From: Lachnospiraceae bacterium
GTDB taxonomy: Bacteria > Bacillota > Clostridia > Lachnospirales > Lachnospiraceae
Length of the DNA stretch: 56,933 nucleotides
Direction: 5' to 3'
Assembly (NCBI GenBank): GCA_017440575.1
Contig: JAFSGY010000092.1
Coordinates: 1 to 56,933 of the forward strand
Below are positions 5,223-52,122 of the stretch, one piece after another. The notes under the pieces are model-generated. The model was given only the letters and a program-made list of their open reading frames with translations. It searched no databases and was not told the origin of the DNA. Within the stretch, counting starts at the first letter, position 1; every line of letters begins with the position of its first letter. The position numbers and the translations under genes are program-made.

Positions 5223-5648
5223 CTACGTCTTTACGTTCTCAAACACATATTCTATAAATTTCTCTACACCATCTTTTATTCCTGCTTTATATTCCATGCT
5301 GGTTTCTGCATTATCGTCACACTCTTTAAAATATTTCTTAGCTAGCTTTGTCATCTGCTCCTTAGATATATTTATGCTAATGTTCGTTGCTGCATGCACT
5401 GCATCCAACGCTTTGTTATAGCTAAGAAAAAACTGCTTATTAAAAAGTGACTCATGATATTTTATCGTAATACTTGCATCTAATGTACTTACCGTTACTT
5501 CCGAACCATTTACAAGCACACATCGCAGCGTTCTAATACCTAAGCCTTTTTCTTCTTTTACAATATCATATAAAACGCTATTAACGCTTATTGAACTAAA
5601 TGTTGGATTTGTTAAATCTGATAACTTCTTACCAATACTCTTATTCAT
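5223..5648 (-). CDS. Conserved hypothetical protein, 141 aa
   Basis: I do not recognise this family. The protein has a beta-rich N-terminal half (SVLYDIVKEEKGLGIRTLRC then EVTVSTLDASITIKY) and a helical C-terminal half (EQMTKLAKKYFKECDDNAE). No signal peptide or membrane segment is seen. GGGGAAAGGG precedes the ATG at 5648. It is followed by a bidirectional hairpin terminator and lies downstream of, but separated by a terminator from, the L,D-transpeptidase gene, so it probably has its own promoter. Confidence 0.65.
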   Translation of the reverse strand: MNKSIGKKLSDLTNPTFSSISVNSVLYDIVKEEKGLGIRTLRCVLVNGSEVTVSTLDASITIKYHESLFNKQFFLSYNKALDAVHAATNISINISKEQMTKLAKKYFKECDDNAETSMEYKAGIKDGVEKFIEYVFENVKT

Positions 5649-5734
5649 GTTTATTCCCTTTCCCCAACCACATTTTCTATCTTACTTTTATAACTAATTA
5701 TAATCTAATTTTTCTGCCGAGTAAACTATCTTCT

Positions 5735-5783
5735 AAAAAAGCTAATAGCAATTGCGCTATCAAAAAATAACTCAATTGCTATT
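5735..5783 (-). terminator. Terminator of the L,D-transpeptidase gene
   Basis: On the minus strand AATAGCAATTG and CAATTGCTATT (11-bp arms, plus 5744-5754 and 5773-5783) form a stem followed by AGCTTTTTT. It sits 30 bp past the stop at 5816. Confidence 0.75.
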
Positions 5784-5815
5784 CCAACTTTACTATAAAT
5801 CATAGTCTTATATTT

Positions 5816-6703
5816 CTACATATATACAACCGCAAGTATCATTTCCTGCTCTGTCATACGTCCAATTGCATCGATTCCTGTTACCCATACCCTGTAAGCG
5901 CCAAAGGTATTCAAATCATATGTTCCATTCACATAAATCTGATAATCCACGCCACCATAAGGAAGCCCCTGTGCATTACGAAGTCCAATCGCAGCCTTTA
6001 AATCCTCCTGTGTTGCTCCAACCGGAACATAGATAACACCATCTCCCATATCTCTTGTCAGATACAGACGAGGCAGATCATCATTCCAAGGATTTTCTTC
6101 TTTAGTAACATCCGTTGGATCCCAATTCTTGTATGGATGATCAGGCTGAATCTTCATAGCAGATGGTTTCCCAAGAGGACCTGGATTTTCTACATCATCA
6201 TAAACAATAACTGTTGTACCCTTTTCGCAATTCTCATAAATCCACTTAGAATCATTTGCTGTCAATCTAACGCAACCATGTGATGCCGGTTCACCAAGCT
6301 TGTTATATTCCTCTGCCACTAAGGTATCAGGTGCATCAGAAACATATGGTACAGAATGAAATAAGATTCGATTTACAAAACGTACTGCATACTGTCCATA
6401 GGTATTATCTACCATCAGACGCCACTCATAATAATCACTTGTTGAAAAGGTTCCAAGCGGAGTATAATCCAACTCAATGCCACAGGAACATGGCATCGCT
6501 TTAACCGGAACAGTATATGCACCCGTTTCATCCTTTTCATACACAGTTACACAATTTGCGGCTCTGTTCACTCTTATCTCATATCGAGGACCTTCTTCCT
6601 CTGCGTTTACAGTCATACCAACGCCAAAACTAAGCAATACACTCATCACCAAAGCAAGTCCACACAAAACTACTTTTTTTGCTAATTTCATTATTTTGCG
6701 CAT
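5816..6703 (-). CDS. Secreted L,D-transpeptidase (YkuD domain)
   Basis: The 295-residue protein starts at the ATG at 6703 (MRKIMKLAKKVVLCGLALVM), 8 nt after GGAGGA; a TTG at 6718 is a poorer choice. A signal peptide with cleavage near VNAEE opens the protein. The YkuD catalytic motif SHGCVRLTANDSKWIYENC contains the active Cys within HGCVR. The domain spans about residues 40-170. The last 100 residues (VYINGTYDLNTFGAYRVWVT-like region, LYLTRDMGDGVIYV) look like a separate beta-sandwich extension. YkuD enzymes form 3-3 peptide cross-links in peptidoglycan or attach proteins to it outside the membrane. Terminators on both sides make it monocistronic. Confidence 0.92.
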   Translation of the reverse strand: MRKIMKLAKKVVLCGLALVMSVLLSFGVGMTVNAEEEGPRYEIRVNRAANCVTVYEKDETGAYTVPVKAMPCSCGIELDYTPLGTFSTSDYYEWRLMVDNTYGQYAVRFVNRILFHSVPYVSDAPDTLVAEEYNKLGEPASHGCVRLTANDSKWIYENCEKGTTVIVYDDVENPGPLGKPSAMKIQPDHPYKNWDPTDVTKEENPWNDDLPRLYLTRDMGDGVIYVPVGATQEDLKAAIGLRNAQGLPYGGVDYQIYVNGTYDLNTFGAYRVWVTGIDAIGRMTEQEMILAVVYM

Positions 6704-15492: not shown

Positions 15493-16377
15493 TTATAAGA
15501 TTCCGTATTCCTTCATTGCCTTTTCAAGCTTTGCTGCATTTACATCTTCCATCTCTGTAAGAGGTCTTCTTAATGGCCCAGCTTCCAATCCAATCAGATT
15601 AACACCTTTCTTAACAGGAATCGGATTCACTTCACAGAATAATGCATCGCAAAGAGGAATCGCTCTAAGCTGCTCCTGCATACTCTTCTCTACTTCACCC
15701 TTGAAATAATATTCACAAATGTCATGAGTCTGCTGTGGTGCTACGTTAGAAAGAACAGAAATTACACCCTTTCCGCCAAGTGACAGAATCGGAACAATCT
15801 GATCATCATTTCCTGAGTATAGGTCAACACAGCCATTTGCCAAGTGCATCAGCTTAGCAACCTGTGAAATATTACCGCTTGCTTCCTTAACACCTACAAT
15901 ATTCTCTACATCCTTGCAAAGACGTACTACTGTCTCCGGAGCCATATTACAGCCTGTTCTACTTGGTACATTATATAAAATGATAGGAACCTTAACAGAA
16001 TCTGCAATTAGCTTAAAATGCTCATAAAGACCATTTTGGGTAGCTTTATTGTAATAAGGAGTTACTACAAGAAGTCCATCAACACCAGACTTTTCAGCCT
16101 CCTGTGACAAATAAATCGCTGTTTCTGTACAGTTTGAACCTGTTCCTGCGATAACCGGTACTCTACCTGCAACCTTTTCCACACAATATTTAATAACGTC
16201 TAAATGCTCTTCATGGCTTAATGTAGAAGCCTCACCTGTCGTACCACATACAATGATAGCATCTGTACTATTCTCAATCTGAAAATCAATTAACTTTGCA
16301 AATGCCTCGTAATTAACCTCTCCGTTATCCTTCATAGGTGTAACAATTGCAACACCAGCGCCTGTAAAAATAGCCAT
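15493..16377 (-). CDS. dapA: 4-hydroxy-tetrahydrodipicolinate synthase
   Basis: The 294-residue enzyme starts at 16377 (MAIFTGAGVAIVTPM) after AGGAGGAG. It shows the Schiff-base region with the catalytic lysine in NIVGVKEASGNI, the tyrosine of ILYNVPSRTG, and CGTTGEASTLSHEEH. It condenses pyruvate with aspartate semialdehyde, the first step of the diaminopimelate/lysine branch. An in-frame extension up to 16587 is excluded: that DNA is the riboswitch. Expression is probably turned off by lysine through premature termination. Confidence 0.96.
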   Translation of the reverse strand: MAIFTGAGVAIVTPMKDNGEVNYEAFAKLIDFQIENSTDAIIVCGTTGEASTLSHEEHLDVIKYCVEKVAGRVPVIAGTGSNCTETAIYLSQEAEKSGVDGLLVVTPYYNKATQNGLYEHFKLIADSVKVPIILYNVPSRTGCNMAPETVVRLCKDVENIVGVKEASGNISQVAKLMHLANGCVDLYSGNDDQIVPILSLGGKGVISVLSNVAPQQTHDICEYYFKGEVEKSMQEQLRAIPLCDALFCEVNPIPVKKGVNLIGLEAGPLRRPLTEMEDVNAAKLEKAMKEYGIL

Positions 16378-18233: not shown

Positions 18234-20063
18234 ATGAAACAAAAAAGAGAAGATGTCAGAAACGTAGCCATTATTGCCCATGTAGACCATGGTAAGACTA
18301 CTCTCGTAGATGAGCTGTTGAAGCAAAGTGGTGTATTTCGTGAGAATCAGGAAGTTGCAGAACGTGTCATGGACTCAAATGACATCGAGCGTGAACGTGG
18401 AATCACTATTCTTGCTAAAAATACAGCAGTTATGTACAAAGGAACCAAAATTAATATTATAGATACACCGGGACATGCTGATTTCGGTGGTGAAGTAGAA
18501 CGAGTTCTGAAAATGGTAAACGGTGTTATCCTTGTCGTTGACGCCTTTGAAGGAGCTATGCCTCAGACCAAATTCGTTTTGAAAAAGGCATTAGAGTTAA
18601 AGCTCCCTGTTATTGTATGTATCAATAAGATTGACCGTCCTGAGGCAAGAGCCTTAGAAGTAGTTGATGAAGTTCTTGAATTATTCCTTGAGCTTGATGC
18701 GGATGATGCACAGCTTGATTGTCCTTTCATATTTGCCTCTGCCAAGGCTGGTATTGCTTCCCTTGATGAAGATGAAATGGGTAGTGATATGACACCATTA
18801 TTCGAAACGATTCTTGATTATATTCCTGCTCCGGAAGGTGACCCGGAAGCAGGTACACAGGTCCTTATCAGTACGATCGATTATAATGAATATGTTGGTC
18901 GTATCGGTGTAGGTAAGGTTGATAACGGTGTTATTAAGGTAAATCAGGATGTTATCTTGTGTAACCACCATGAACCTGACAAGCAGAAAAAGGTTAAGGT
19001 CAGCAAATTATATGAATATGACGGACTAAATAAGGTAGAAGTAAAGGAAGCCGGAATCGGTGCTATCGTTGCCATTTCCGGTATTGCAGACATTCATATT
19101 GGTGATACACTCTGTTCCGTAGATAATGTAGAGCCGATTCCTTTCCAGAAGATTAGCGAACCTACGATTGCTATGCACTTTATCGTAAATGACTCTCCTC
19201 TTGCAGGTCAGGAAGGAAAGTTCGTAACCAGCCGCCATCTTCGTGAAAGATTATTCCGTGAACTTAATACAGACGTTTCCCTTCGTGTTGAAGAAACAGA
19301 AAATGCCGATTCCTTCAAGGTGTCCGGTCGTGGTGAGCTTCACTTATCTGTTTTAATCGAAAATATGAGACGTGAAGGCTTTGAATTCGCAGTAAGTAAG
19401 GCAGAAGTATTATATAAGGAAGATGAAAATGGTAAGAAGCTTGAGCCAATGGAGCTTGCCTATATTGATGTTCCGGAAGAATTCTCTGGTTCCGTTATTG
19501 AAAAATTAAGCCAGAGAAAGGGCGAGCTTCAGAATATGGGAATGGCAAGCGGCGGTTACTCAAGACTTGAGTTCTCTATTCCATCAAGAGGCTTAATCGG
19601 CTATCGTGGTGAATTCATGACTGATACTAAGGGAAATGGTATCTTAAATACAAGCTTTGACGGCTATGGACCTTTCAAGGGTGAGATTCAGTATCGTAAG
19701 CAGGGTTCTCTGATTGCCTTCGAAGCAGGCGAAGCAATTACCTATGGTCTTTACAATGCACAGGAGCGTGGTACACTTTTCATCGGGCCTGGTGAAAAGG
19801 TTTACTCTGGTATGGTCGTTGGACAGACAGGTAAAGCTGAAGATATCGAAATCAATGTCTGCAAGAAGAAACAGCTTACCAATACCCGTTCTTCCAGTGC
19901 TGACGAAGCACTCCGCTTAACACCTCCAAGAATCCTAAGTCTAGAACAGGCTCTTGACTTTATTGATACCGACGAGTTACTTGAGGTTACACCTACTACC
20001 TTAAGAATCCGTAAGAAGATTCTTGACCCGACTCTTAGAAAGAGAGCCGGATTTAAAAAATAA
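18234..20063 (+). CDS. typA: Ribosome-associated translational GTPase TypA/BipA
   Basis: The 609-residue GTPase has G1 [15 protein letters not shown]2 in [11 protein letters not shown]3 [15 protein letters not shown]4 NKIDRPEA and G5 FASAKAG, followed by EF-G-like domains II, III and V and the BipA-specific C-terminal domain ([20 protein letters not shown]). It binds the ribosome and helps large-subunit assembly and stress adaptation. Start 18234 ([10 protein letters not shown]) follows GGAGG; an ATG at 18222 overlaps that site. Single gene with its own promoter and terminator. Confidence 0.97.
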
Positions 20064-47127: not shown

Positions 47128-48501
47128 CTATAATAAATCTATGGCTTCTCCAATTCCTGATATACCAATCATTCGGATACCCGGAATCGGCTCAAGTCCT
47201 TCCATGGAAACTTTTGGTAATACAATTGTTTCATATCCTAGTTTCCTTGCTTCCAGCACCCTTTGTTCCACCTGACTGACAGCTCTTACTTCACCACTTA
47301 AGCCAACCTCACCAAAACATATCGTCTTTTCATCAATAGGACGATTCTTGAAGCTGGATACAATCGCAAGTACAATGCCTAAGTCTAACGCAGGTTCATT
47401 GATTTTCATACCACCTGCAATATTCACATAGGCATCGCAATCACCAATCTGCATTCCTGCTCTCTTTTCTAAAACTGCCATCAGCAGGTTCACCCTGTTA
47501 AAATCAGTTCCTGTTGTCTGTCTTCTTGGAATTCCAAAATTCGTTCTACAAACAAGTGCCTGTATCTCGATTAATATTGGTCTGGTTCCTTCTATCGAGC
47601 ACACAACCACAGAACCACTTGCCCCCACAGGTTTTCCATTCAACATGAATTCCGACGGATTTGCTACCTCTACCAAGCCTTCCTTTCGCATCTCAAAGAC
47701 ACCAATTTCATTGGTAGAGCCGAATCGATTCTTAACACCTCGAAGGATTCGATAGGAAGCATGTCTGTCCCCCTCAAAGTACAATACAGTATCAACCATA
47801 TGTTCCAGCACTCTAGGTCCAGCCACGGTTCCTTCCTTTGTAACATGCCCTACAATGAAAATAGATATTCCCAAGCCCTTTGCAAGTTGCATAAACACAT
47901 TCGTTGCTTCTCTTACCTGTGATACGCTTCCCGGCGCAGAGCCAACCTCCTCCTGATACATCGTCTGTATCGAATCTATGATTACCACTTCCGGTGCTGT
48001 TCGCTTAATAGATTCCTCTATCAAACCAAGATTGGTTTCACACAGCAGCAGCATATTGTCCTTAAACTCTCCAATTCGATTCGCACGAAGCTTAATCTGC
48101 TTTAAGGATTCCTCACCCGAAATATATAATACCTTATGTCCTGCACTAGACAGATTCCTACATACCTGCAATAAAAGAGTTGATTTTCCAATGCCTGGAT
48201 CACCGCCAACCAGAGTCAGAGAGCCTTGAATAATGCCACCTCCAAGCACCCTGTCTAATTCCTCAATCTTAGTTGAAATACGGTCACTTTCCTCCATAGA
48301 AATCGAACTAATCTCTACCGGCTTTGGTGCCTCCTTATGTGCAATCGTCTTTGCACTACCTCCCATTCCACTTCCGGTTACACTTACCTTTTCTTCTACA
48401 AGAGTATTCCACTGCTTGCATCCCGGACACTGCCCCATCCACTTTGATGTTTCATACCCGCATTCCTGACAGAAAAATACCGTTGTTACCTTTTTCGCCA
48501 T
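47128..48501 (-). CDS. radA: DNA repair ATPase RadA/Sms
   Basis: The 457-residue protein has the N-terminal zinc finger CQECGYETSKWMGQCPGC, a RecA-like domain with Walker A GGDPGIGKSTLL and the RadA motif KNRFGSTNEIG, and a C-terminal Lon-like domain (AGGMKINEPALDLGIVLAIV). It drives branch migration in recombination. GGAGTGA lies upstream of the ATG. It is close to clpC, as in many Firmicutes. Confidence 0.96.
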   Translation of the reverse strand: MAKKVTTVFFCQECGYETSKWMGQCPGCKQWNTLVEEKVSVTGSGMGGSAKTIAHKEAPKPVEISSISMEESDRISTKIEELDRVLGGGIIQGSLTLVGGDPGIGKSTLLLQVCRNLSSAGHKVLYISGEESLKQIKLRANRIGEFKDNMLLLCETNLGLIEESIKRTAPEVVIIDSIQTMYQEEVGSAPGSVSQVREATNVFMQLAKGLGISIFIVGHVTKEGTVAGPRVLEHMVDTVLYFEGDRHASYRILRGVKNRFGSTNEIGVFEMRKEGLVEVANPSEFMLNGKPVGASGSVVVCSIEGTRPILIEIQALVCRTNFGIPRRQTTGTDFNRVNLLMAVLEKRAGMQIGDCDAYVNIAGGMKINEPALDLGIVLAIVSSFKNRPIDEKTICFGEVGLSGEVRAVSQVEQRVLEARKLGYETIVLPKVSMEGLEPIPGIRMIGISGIGEAIDLL

Positions 48502-48630: not shown

Positions 48631-49047
48631 TTAAACCTGTTTTACCAGCTTTACCTCAACCTCTCCAATGCCTTCCAGCTCTACGCTAAGATTCAGCTTT
48701 CCGGAAAGATTTGTTTTCATTGTACCGATGCTTTCACCAGCTACAATTACTTGATATTCGGAGTCGTCCTCAAGCCCGATAGTTATCTGAGCATCCTGCT
48801 CTCCTTCTACCATAAACGAAACACCCTCTGCACTCTCGTCAAAGTTAAGAACAGAAGTTCCCGGAACAGATTCATACAAGAATAATCCGTTCTTTTCCAG
48901 CTTCGTCATCGCATTGAAGGTCTTTACCTTATACATATCTCCTTCATGCTCATAATCTTCCTTCTTAGCCTTCTGTGCTAACTGATGATTTCCAAAGCTG
49001 ATTGTTCCATTGCTCTCGGAGCGTAGTAATTCTTCAACTACTGCCAT
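48631..49047 (-). CDS. Conserved Lachnospiraceae protein, 138 aa (sometimes labelled endosialidase)
   Basis: The protein starts MAVVEELLRSESNGTISFGN and has LAQKAKKEDYEHEGDMYKVK, TKLEKNGLFLYESVPGTSVL, then beta strands to the end (GKLNLSVELEGIGEVEVKLV). Similar proteins are widespread in Lachnospiraceae and databases sometimes call them endosialidase; nothing here supports a sialidase. AGGAGG precedes the ATG. It lies between radA and clpC. Confidence 0.75.
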   Translation of the reverse strand: MAVVEELLRSESNGTISFGNHQLAQKAKKEDYEHEGDMYKVKTFNAMTKLEKNGLFLYESVPGTSVLNFDESAEGVSFMVEGEQDAQITIGLEDDSEYQVIVAGESIGTMKTNLSGKLNLSVELEGIGEVEVKLVKQV

Positions 49048-49291: not shown

Positions 49292-51739
49292 TTATTTTTT
49301 CACAGTAAAAGTTACCTTCTCATTCTTGACACCTGCCTGCACAGTATCACCACGCTTTACTCTACCTTCCAGAATCGCTGTAGCAAGTTCATCCTCTACA
49401 ACATTCTGTACTGCACGCTTTAATGGTCTTGCTCCCATCTTCAGGTCAGAATATTTCTTAACAAGATGTTCTTTTAGTGAATTGGTAAAGGTTAATTCAA
49501 TCTCCATTTGTTCCATGCATCTATCACACAGATTTTTAGATAACAAAGTAATAATCTGCTTCATATCCTTATCTGTTAATGGATGGAATACCATAATTTC
49601 ATCAATTCTATTGATAAATTCTGGTTTAAATAATCGCTTTACCTCTTCCATAACATTCGATTTCATCTTATTATAATCTGCCGCTTCATCCTTTTTCGAT
49701 GCAAAACCAAGGTTCTTCGGGTCTATGATTCTCTGTGCTCCTGCATTTGATGTCATAATTAGAACGGTATTCTTAAAGCTTACCTTACGTCCCTTAGAAT
49801 CCGTAATATGACCATCATCCAGCACCTGTAACAGAATATTAAACACATCCGGCTGTGCTTTCTCAATCTCATCAAAAAGAACAACCGAATAAGGATTGCG
49901 TCTTACCTTCTAACTTAATTGACCACCTTCCTCAAAACCAACATAGCCTGGCGGTGAACCAATCATCTTAGATACCGAATGTGACTCCATATATTCAGAC
50001 ATATCTACACGGATAAGCGCATTTTCAGATCCAAACATAGCTTCTGCCAAAGCCTTAGATAACTCTGTCTTACCTACACCGGTCGGTCCTAAGAAAAGGA
50101 AGGAACCAATTGGTCTGTTTGGATCCTGTAAACCAACACGTCCTCGCTTCATAGCTCTTGCAACAGCACTCACTGCTTCTTCCTGTCCAATCACACGCTT
50201 ATGCAAAACTGCTTCCAGCTTTAACAGCTTCTCACTTTCCTTCTGTGCAAGCTTCTGCACTGGAATCTTCGTCCAGTTAGATACCACATCTGCAATATCA
50301 TTCTCTGTTACGATAAGATTCTTCTCCGCCTGTGTCTTTTCATATTTACTAACGGCCTTCTGGTACTTCTTTATCAAAGCTTCCTGATTCTGTCGAATCT
50401 CTGCTGCCTGTGTAAATGCTTCTATTCGAATAGAACGTTCAATTTGAAGCTCCATCTTCTTTATCTCGTCAGACATTGTTTTCAGATTCTCAGGCACATT
50501 CATGTTTTTGAGTCTGATTGCAGCAGCTGCCTCATCAATCAAATCAATCGCTTTATCCGGAAGATTTCTGTCATTGATATAACGATCAGAAAACTTAACA
50601 GCCGCTTCTATCGCTTCCGGTGTAATCGTAACCTTATGATGCTCCTCATATTTATAAGCAACCCCGCTTAAGATGCCAATTGCTTCTTCTACTGAAGGCT
50701 CTTCTACCGATACTGGTTGGAAACGTCTCTCAAGAGCGGCATCCTTCTCAATATATTTACGATATTCTGCAATCGTTGTTGCTCCAATCAGCTGAATCTC
50801 GCCTCTAGATAAGGATGGCTTCAAAATATTCGAAGCGTCAATGGCTCCCTCTGCTCCACCTGCTCCAATTAAGGTATGAAGTTCATCAAGAAACAGATAA
50901 ATATTGCCTGCTTCAATCACTTCCCTGATAACCTTCTTAATTCTTTCTTCAAATTCACCTCGGTACTTAGAGCCTGCTACCATACCGGATAAATCCAGCG
51001 TAACTACTCGCTTATTCTTCACGGTATCAGGTACATCACCGTTTACAATACGAAGTGCCAGTCCTTCTGCAATCGCTGTTTTTCCAACTCCCGGTTCTCC
51101 TATCAGACAAGGATTATTCTTCGTTCTTCTCGACAGAATCTGTACCACACGCATAATTTCCGTTTCTCTTCCAATAACCGGATCAAGTTTTCCCTCACGT
51201 GCCAATGCTGTCAAATCTCTACTGTACTGATTCAGTGTTGCCGTTGTTCCTTCTTTTTTCTTCTTATTTCGATTCTTAGTCAGATCATCTTTATGCTGAG
51301 TTGCATCCTCACCCATTGCAATCAAAGTATCCATATACAACTTCTGTATATTAATACCAATTGTATTCAACAATCTAAGACCTACATTCTCACCCTCACG
51401 GATAATAGCCAATAAAATATGCTCGGTTCCGGTCATAGAACTATGATGTTTTTCCGCCAACTTATGGCTGTCTTCCAAAATCTTAGCCGCTCTTGGCGAA
51501 TAACCATCTCTTTCTTCAATTGTCAGATTCCCCTCTGGTGCAATCAGATCCTTAATCATACTGTTCAATTGAATCTCATCCACACCATTTTCTAAAAGCA
51601 CCTTAGCCGCAACGCCTGTTCTTTCCTTTGCCAGACCTACAAGCAAGTGCTCACTACCTACATAATTCTGATGCAGATCCTTTGCCGCTTTTGTTGCCAA
51701 ATGCAACGCAGTTTTTGCCTTATCTGTAAATTGCATCAT
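49292..51739 (-). pseudogene. clpC: ClpC ATPase with an in-frame amber codon at codon 610
   Basis: The frame 51739-49292 would encode 815 residues with the full ClpC plan: Clp N-domain (residues 1-145), D1 AAA+ with Walker [15 protein letters not shown] and Walker [15 protein letters not shown], a middle coiled coil (about 400-480), D2 with Walker [15 protein letters not shown], and the C-terminal ClpB-D2-small domain. At 49910-49912 the codon is TAG where ClpC has Glu (GGQLSEKVRR), a one-base change from GAG. The N-part (609 residues) has no D2 Walker B (VVLFDEIEKA lies after the stop). The rest from ATG 49846 has no good ribosome site. No frameshift is seen, so the fault is a single nonsense change, a sequencing error or read-through. 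Confidence 0.88.
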
Positions 51740-52122
51740 TTCATGCCTCCATTACCATCATAATTTTGATAAATTTCATCAATTAATGCATGTACTTCTT
51801 CCCTCGAAATCCTCTTACATCTGCTCTTGGCAAGCAATACCTGCATATCCTTTTTCAGCTCTTCCATAGCCTGCAGCTTGTCAATATCGATGGCAACCAC
51901 TGCACCCCTTCTACGGTCAACCTTAACAAAGCCCTCCTGCCGCAAAACGGAATAAGCCTTATTTACTGTATGCATGTTAATTCCTATGGTATCTGCAAGC
52001 TGTCTCACAGAAGGTAGCGTATCTCCTTCCTGATACTGAGACGTAGCAATTCCGATTATAATCTGATTCCTTAGCTGTAGATACAATGCCTCATCACTAT
52101 TAAAATCAATCTCTATATACAT
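51736..52122 (-). CDS. GntR (YtrA-like) transcription regulator upstream of clpC
   Basis: The 128-residue protein has the GntR winged helix: [40 protein letters not shown] and [20 protein letters not shown], with a short helical tail and no large effector domain, typical of the YtrA group. It overlaps clpC by 4 bp (ATGA). CtsR/McsAB genes that usually regulate clpC are not here, so this GntR protein probably regulates the operon. The leader has a perfect hairpin at 52145-52172. Confidence 0.92.

Follow-up and report, generated by a model that had tools for sequence, protein, structure and literature searches.

A single in-frame TAG in clpC of a Lachnospiraceae draft genome: a probable base-level fault of the assembly

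ClpC is a two-domain AAA+ unfoldase of the Clp/Hsp100 group, and the frame described here has the domain order of such a protein (Clp_N, D1, lid, D2, D2-small) but differs in carrying one in-frame stop in the D2 module of its assembled sequence. Single-base nonsense artefacts are a known class in draft or metagenome-assembled genomes. The stretch of DNA that we analysed (the window, 56,933 nucleotides) makes up all of contig C48 in a Lachnospiraceae draft genome (G000) that comprises 2,827,604 bases in 122 contigs, with a completeness of 78.38% and a contamination of 1.72. From its 122 contigs, its 78% completeness and the runs of N in some contigs, we infer that this genome is a metagenome bin. 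We think it probable that the TAG in clpC is a base-level fault of the draft, either an error in the consensus or a base contributed by a minor strain of a mixed population, and that clpC is intact in the real population; in other words, we infer a cause in sequence quality rather than in mutation.

The clpC frame and its neighbours

On the minus strand of the window, an open reading frame of 609 amino acids (49910-51739) is terminated by a TAG at 49910-49912. Past this codon the same frame is open for another 205 codons, to a stop at 49292, and over its whole length (51739-49292, minus strand) it is collinear with ClpC, with a single TAG in frame. The features of the region are as follows.

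49913..51739, minus strand: clpC upstream piece, 609 codons, with the N domain, D1 and the start of D2 including Walker A (Pfam; collinear with 109 relatives)
49910..49912, minus strand: in-frame TAG, residue 610; an acidic residue (Glu or Asp) in all 108 relatives covering the site
49853..49855, minus strand: ClpC residue 629, Gln; His in 107 of 108 relatives and Tyr in one (alignment of relatives)
49292..49909, minus strand: clpC downstream piece, 205 codons and the terminal stop, with the remainder of D2 (from Walker B on) and D2-small (Pfam, tblastn)
51736..52122, minus strand: GntR-family regulator that overlaps the clpC start (GntR/MocR-type model matches, all below cut-off)
48631..49047, minus strand: conserved gene downstream of clpC, 138 amino acids, without a Pfam match; conserved in the relatives G013 and G017
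47128..48501, minus strand: radA-like gene, 457 amino acids (Pfam domains); the name RadA is presumed from these domains

When the two pieces of clpC were scanned apart against Pfam, the upstream piece matched Clp_N, AAA (D1), the AAA lid and positions 1-67 of the 166 positions of AAA_2 (D2), and the downstream piece matched positions 70-166 of AAA_2 together with ClpB_D2-small. The ClpC domain set (N domain, two AAA+ modules and D2-small) is complete in one collinear frame that carries one stop. The context of the TAG is EEGGQLS(stop)KVRRNP; it lies 3′ of GPTGVGKT and 5′ of VVLFDEIE, which we take to be the Walker A and Walker B motifs of D2. Judged from the sequence, chance is excluded as the source of a 205-codon collinear continuation in a gene that is 97.5% identical overall to its nearest relative. 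The original prediction had placed the TAG inside D2, between Walker A and Walker B, in a frame collinear with ClpC on either side. Both points hold: the reading frame ends at 49910-49912 with AAA_2 split at 67/70, and the domain matches and the tblastn alignments to relatives agree upstream and downstream of the stop. The downstream frame is also listed apart as an ORF of 184 amino acids with a GTG start (49292-49846), beginning 3′ of Walker B; because its start falls after that motif, it is not plausible as a gene of its own, and a restart product was rejected on the same observation. Scanned for promoters and terminators, the clpC region gave values near those of shuffled sequences.

When the ORFs of two relatives, G013 and G017, were compared with the window, a stop fell inside the body of the matching gene for clpC only; by eye, the others lay in shadow frames or 5′ of start codons. 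The nonsynonymous share, counted over 15 genes of the window, is not raised on the branch leading to our genome (61 of 631 polarised codons, against 67 of 654 on the G013 branch).

clpC in related genomes

Relatives were retained at 60% identity or more, with the genome's own copies and its own ClpB left out. The resulting 109 sequences, from Lachnospiraceae and other Clostridia-type genomes, are 60-98% identical to the window ClpC; one (L118) ends before the site, leaving 108, a number that does not count independent species, as the set was drawn from two collections in which the same species may occur twice. A comparison with close relatives at 49910-49912, which the original prediction had proposed, found a sense codon in every one of these 108 sequences (Glu in 104, Asp in 4). 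A search for a second clpC or clpE, likewise proposed, found that only the window copy is ClpC-like among eight AAA_2 matches in this 78% complete genome; the other strong AAA_2 match is ClpB, over its cut-off.

The nearest relative, G013 (L010), has a clpC of 87% DNA identity and 97.5% protein identity. With G013 and G017 as references, our own branch carries 74 synonymous and 2 nonsynonymous codon changes before the TAG, against 60 and 5 on the G013 branch; beyond it the corresponding counts are 30 and 4 for our branch, and 28 and 1 for that of G013. From these counts our clpC does not look decayed, and the TAG would therefore either have arisen very recently, or do no harm to expression, or not be real. 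The Gln at residue 629, 19 codons past the TAG, is the second unusual residue in this ClpC.

We also considered, and rejected, a recurrent loss of clpC across the genus. The genomes G009, G032 and G036 have no strong match to clpC, but neither have they one to the radA-like gene beside it, so the sequence is likely to be missing from them, and the apparently broken clpC of G005 (L160:4980-5267 and 5572-5863, contig C107) is a scaffolding artefact, with two runs of N and 24-base duplications flanking each.

Other interrupted genes in the same assembly

We sampled 60 further stretches of the genome which, with the window, make 1,064,250 bases, and scanned them for coding stretches in the same frame split by one stop; candidates were then checked against relatives. 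The scan is incomplete, and the homoserine dehydrogenase below was listed by some runs and missed by others. Four single in-frame stops were verified (TAG, TAG, TGA and TAA), in four unrelated genes, so that at least three genes besides clpC are interrupted in the 1.06 Mb sampled.

L165:17855-19072, contig C15, minus strand: homoserine dehydrogenase, in-frame TAG at 18626-18628; Gln in 29 of 29 relatives examined
L271:4211-5764, contig C14, plus strand: GMP synthase, in-frame TGA at 5408-5410; Gly in 9 of 9 relatives examined
L276:15211-17010, contig C6, minus strand: extracellular solute-binding protein, in-frame TAA at 16204-16206; uninterrupted in the nearest relative (L334)

The two pieces of the homoserine dehydrogenase match one NCBIfam model, at positions 2-148 and 151-367, and a match to this enzyme is present in all 38 genomes of the genus. 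Stop aside, our copy departs from none of the 186 columns that are invariant among its 29 relatives. In one relative (L196) the homoserine dehydrogenase alignment shows one stop, yet an open frame of 401 codons is also reported there. The GMP synthase pieces match model positions 1-393 and 395-512, again with no departure, the stop aside, from 349 columns invariant among nine relatives; in a search of ten genomes for this gene, G013 gave only weaker, partial matches. For the solute-binding protein, the relative in G022 (L334) has a single Tyr codon between the two aligned pieces, in an open frame of 591 codons.

Several candidates were set aside. A TAG at L232:1518 was not counted, being flanked by a pair of short ORFs without an NCBIfam or Pfam match; the pair (L232:1368-1745, plus strand, contig C17) consists of 50 and 75 codons in one frame with the TAG between them, and the second part resembles a recombinase tail by eye. 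Those at L243:6102, L298:8034, L300:12111, L278:1691 and L276:18008 are ordinary gene boundaries, with a different or whole Pfam domain on each side or one side unmatched, and the remaining candidates, several of them in G002, are ordinary gene boundaries by eye. The same scan over 307 kb of G013 and 400 kb of G002 (707 kb) yielded no accepted case, its candidates having been judged partly by Pfam and otherwise by eye; at our genome's rate the chance of such a zero is 0.07 (four cases) or 0.14 (the three listed by the same scan), a statistically weak difference. When G013 and G017 ORFs were compared with the whole sample, 100 of 306 found a counterpart at 78% identity or above; clpC was again the sole clear interruption. 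Judged by eye, the remaining stops there lay in shadow frames or at ends, and no frameshift was conspicuous.

Four stops in about 1 Mb correspond, very roughly, to one wrong base per 10 kb, by arithmetic that assumes about 85% coding sequence and the 4.6% share of stop codons among all possible single substitutions in clpC. At one fault per 10 kb, tens of silent or missense faults would lie unseen in the sample, and Gln629 may be one of them; a rate this low would not show in the 15-gene nonsynonymous comparison. Real mutations and a large number of minor strain variants would leave the same picture in the assembly.

Weighing the explanations

A sequence-level cause becomes the more likely one because single stops (TAG, TGA and TAA) interrupt at least three further conserved genes, a pattern that points away from amber suppression, recoding or an event specific to ClpC. 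A wrong or minor-strain base would enter the consensus and place a TAG in a clpC that is otherwise intact in the population; such a TAG would have no biological effect. The chief competitor, which we regard as unlikely, is a real and recent nonsense mutation that would leave a 609-residue ClpC lacking most of D2 and doing no unfoldase work for ClpP. The TAG base is, after all, present in the assembly, and the Gln in place of a near-invariant His at residue 629, together with the four nonsynonymous changes after the TAG against two before it on our own branch, would fit an early relaxation of constraint, although the numbers are small. But several fresh nonsense mutations, one of them in GMP synthase, are not to be expected in an undecayed genome, and the apparent clpC losses in G009, G032, G036 and G005 dissolve. 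The original prediction of a lost ClpC or a D1-only product, made on condition that the base is real, is not upheld in view of these further interruptions by stops of every kind. That all these stops are real, with fresh nonsense codons of every kind in clpC, homoserine dehydrogenase and GMP synthase, as under generally leaky translation termination, or in a lineage that is decaying and is nourished by its community, strikes us as very improbable. A short product or pair of pieces with a function of its own, that is, a split or D1-only ClpC, is the least credible of all; the N domain and D1 are whole in the upstream piece, but the stop is shared by none of the 108 relatives that cover the site, and the only internal starts listed give an ORF 3′ of Walker B, without an obvious ribosome site (by eye).

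Suppression or stop-codon readthrough yielding full-length ClpC is also highly unlikely. The 205 codons 3′ of the TAG are still conserved, and the 101 bases that begin 18 before the stop fold with a z of -2.26 (6 of 200 shuffles were at least as good), but this fold is unseen in four relatives (z of -0.05, 1.00, 0.05 and 0.34), and a stimulatory RNA structure 3′ of the stop was rejected on that account. All three stop codons interrupt genes, for which one suppressor tRNA is insufficient; an amber suppressor or recoding seemed to fit while the first cases were all TAG, and was dropped when the next sample brought the TGA of GMP synthase and the TAA of the solute-binding protein. The earlier judgement that global recoding is improbable stands, TAG being common as a terminal stop (it ends 157 of 572 long coding-like stop-ended ORFs in our sample) and the genome having two release-factor genes of the RF-1 family with open frames. 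None of its 34 tRNA matches (33 from ARAGORN; the last, cut by a contig end, is Lys CTT by eye) has a CTA anticodon, a weak absence in a draft 78% complete in which tRNAs for several amino acids are unseen (e.g., Tyr, Ala, Ile, Phe, His). A CTA-tRNA pattern gave one match in the genome, which is not a tRNA, and a control pattern also matched; a slightly narrower pattern gave 34 matches in the genus, and the 11 loci read by ARAGORN comprise 4 Arg (TCT) tRNAs and 7 without a tRNA. Matches to PylS in our genome fall below the cut-off, as they do in 12 of the 13 control genomes with matches.

One observation on the tRNA genes may be recorded separately. A cluster of six (Pro-Gly-Arg-His-Gln-Lys) is shared in the genus (G013:C99, G017:C239 and G002:C1; L322, L326 and L315). 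In our draft its tRNAs lie on two contig ends, with Pro and Gly at the end of C13 and Gln and Lys at the end of C15; Arg (TCT) and His are unseen.

If the stop were nevertheless real, we would have a strain from nature in which the D2 of ClpC does not work and in which genes of purine and amino-acid synthesis are lost as well. The base-level fault that we favour carries instead a caution: in judging a single in-frame stop in a core gene, one should ask how often the same fragmentary draft interrupts other conserved genes. Amber suppression and TAG recoding resemble the present case in the presence of a TAG inside a conserved frame; the case departs from them in its additional TGA and TAA, in the CTA tRNA and PylS for which searches of our draft found nothing acceptable, and in the frequent use of TAG as a terminal stop. 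From the nonsense artefacts of drafts and metagenomes it differs in that the fault is here read from the assembled sequence alone and in that the excess over related genomes is statistically weak; it is like them in its isolated stops of all three kinds, in conserved genes, within a fragmentary draft.
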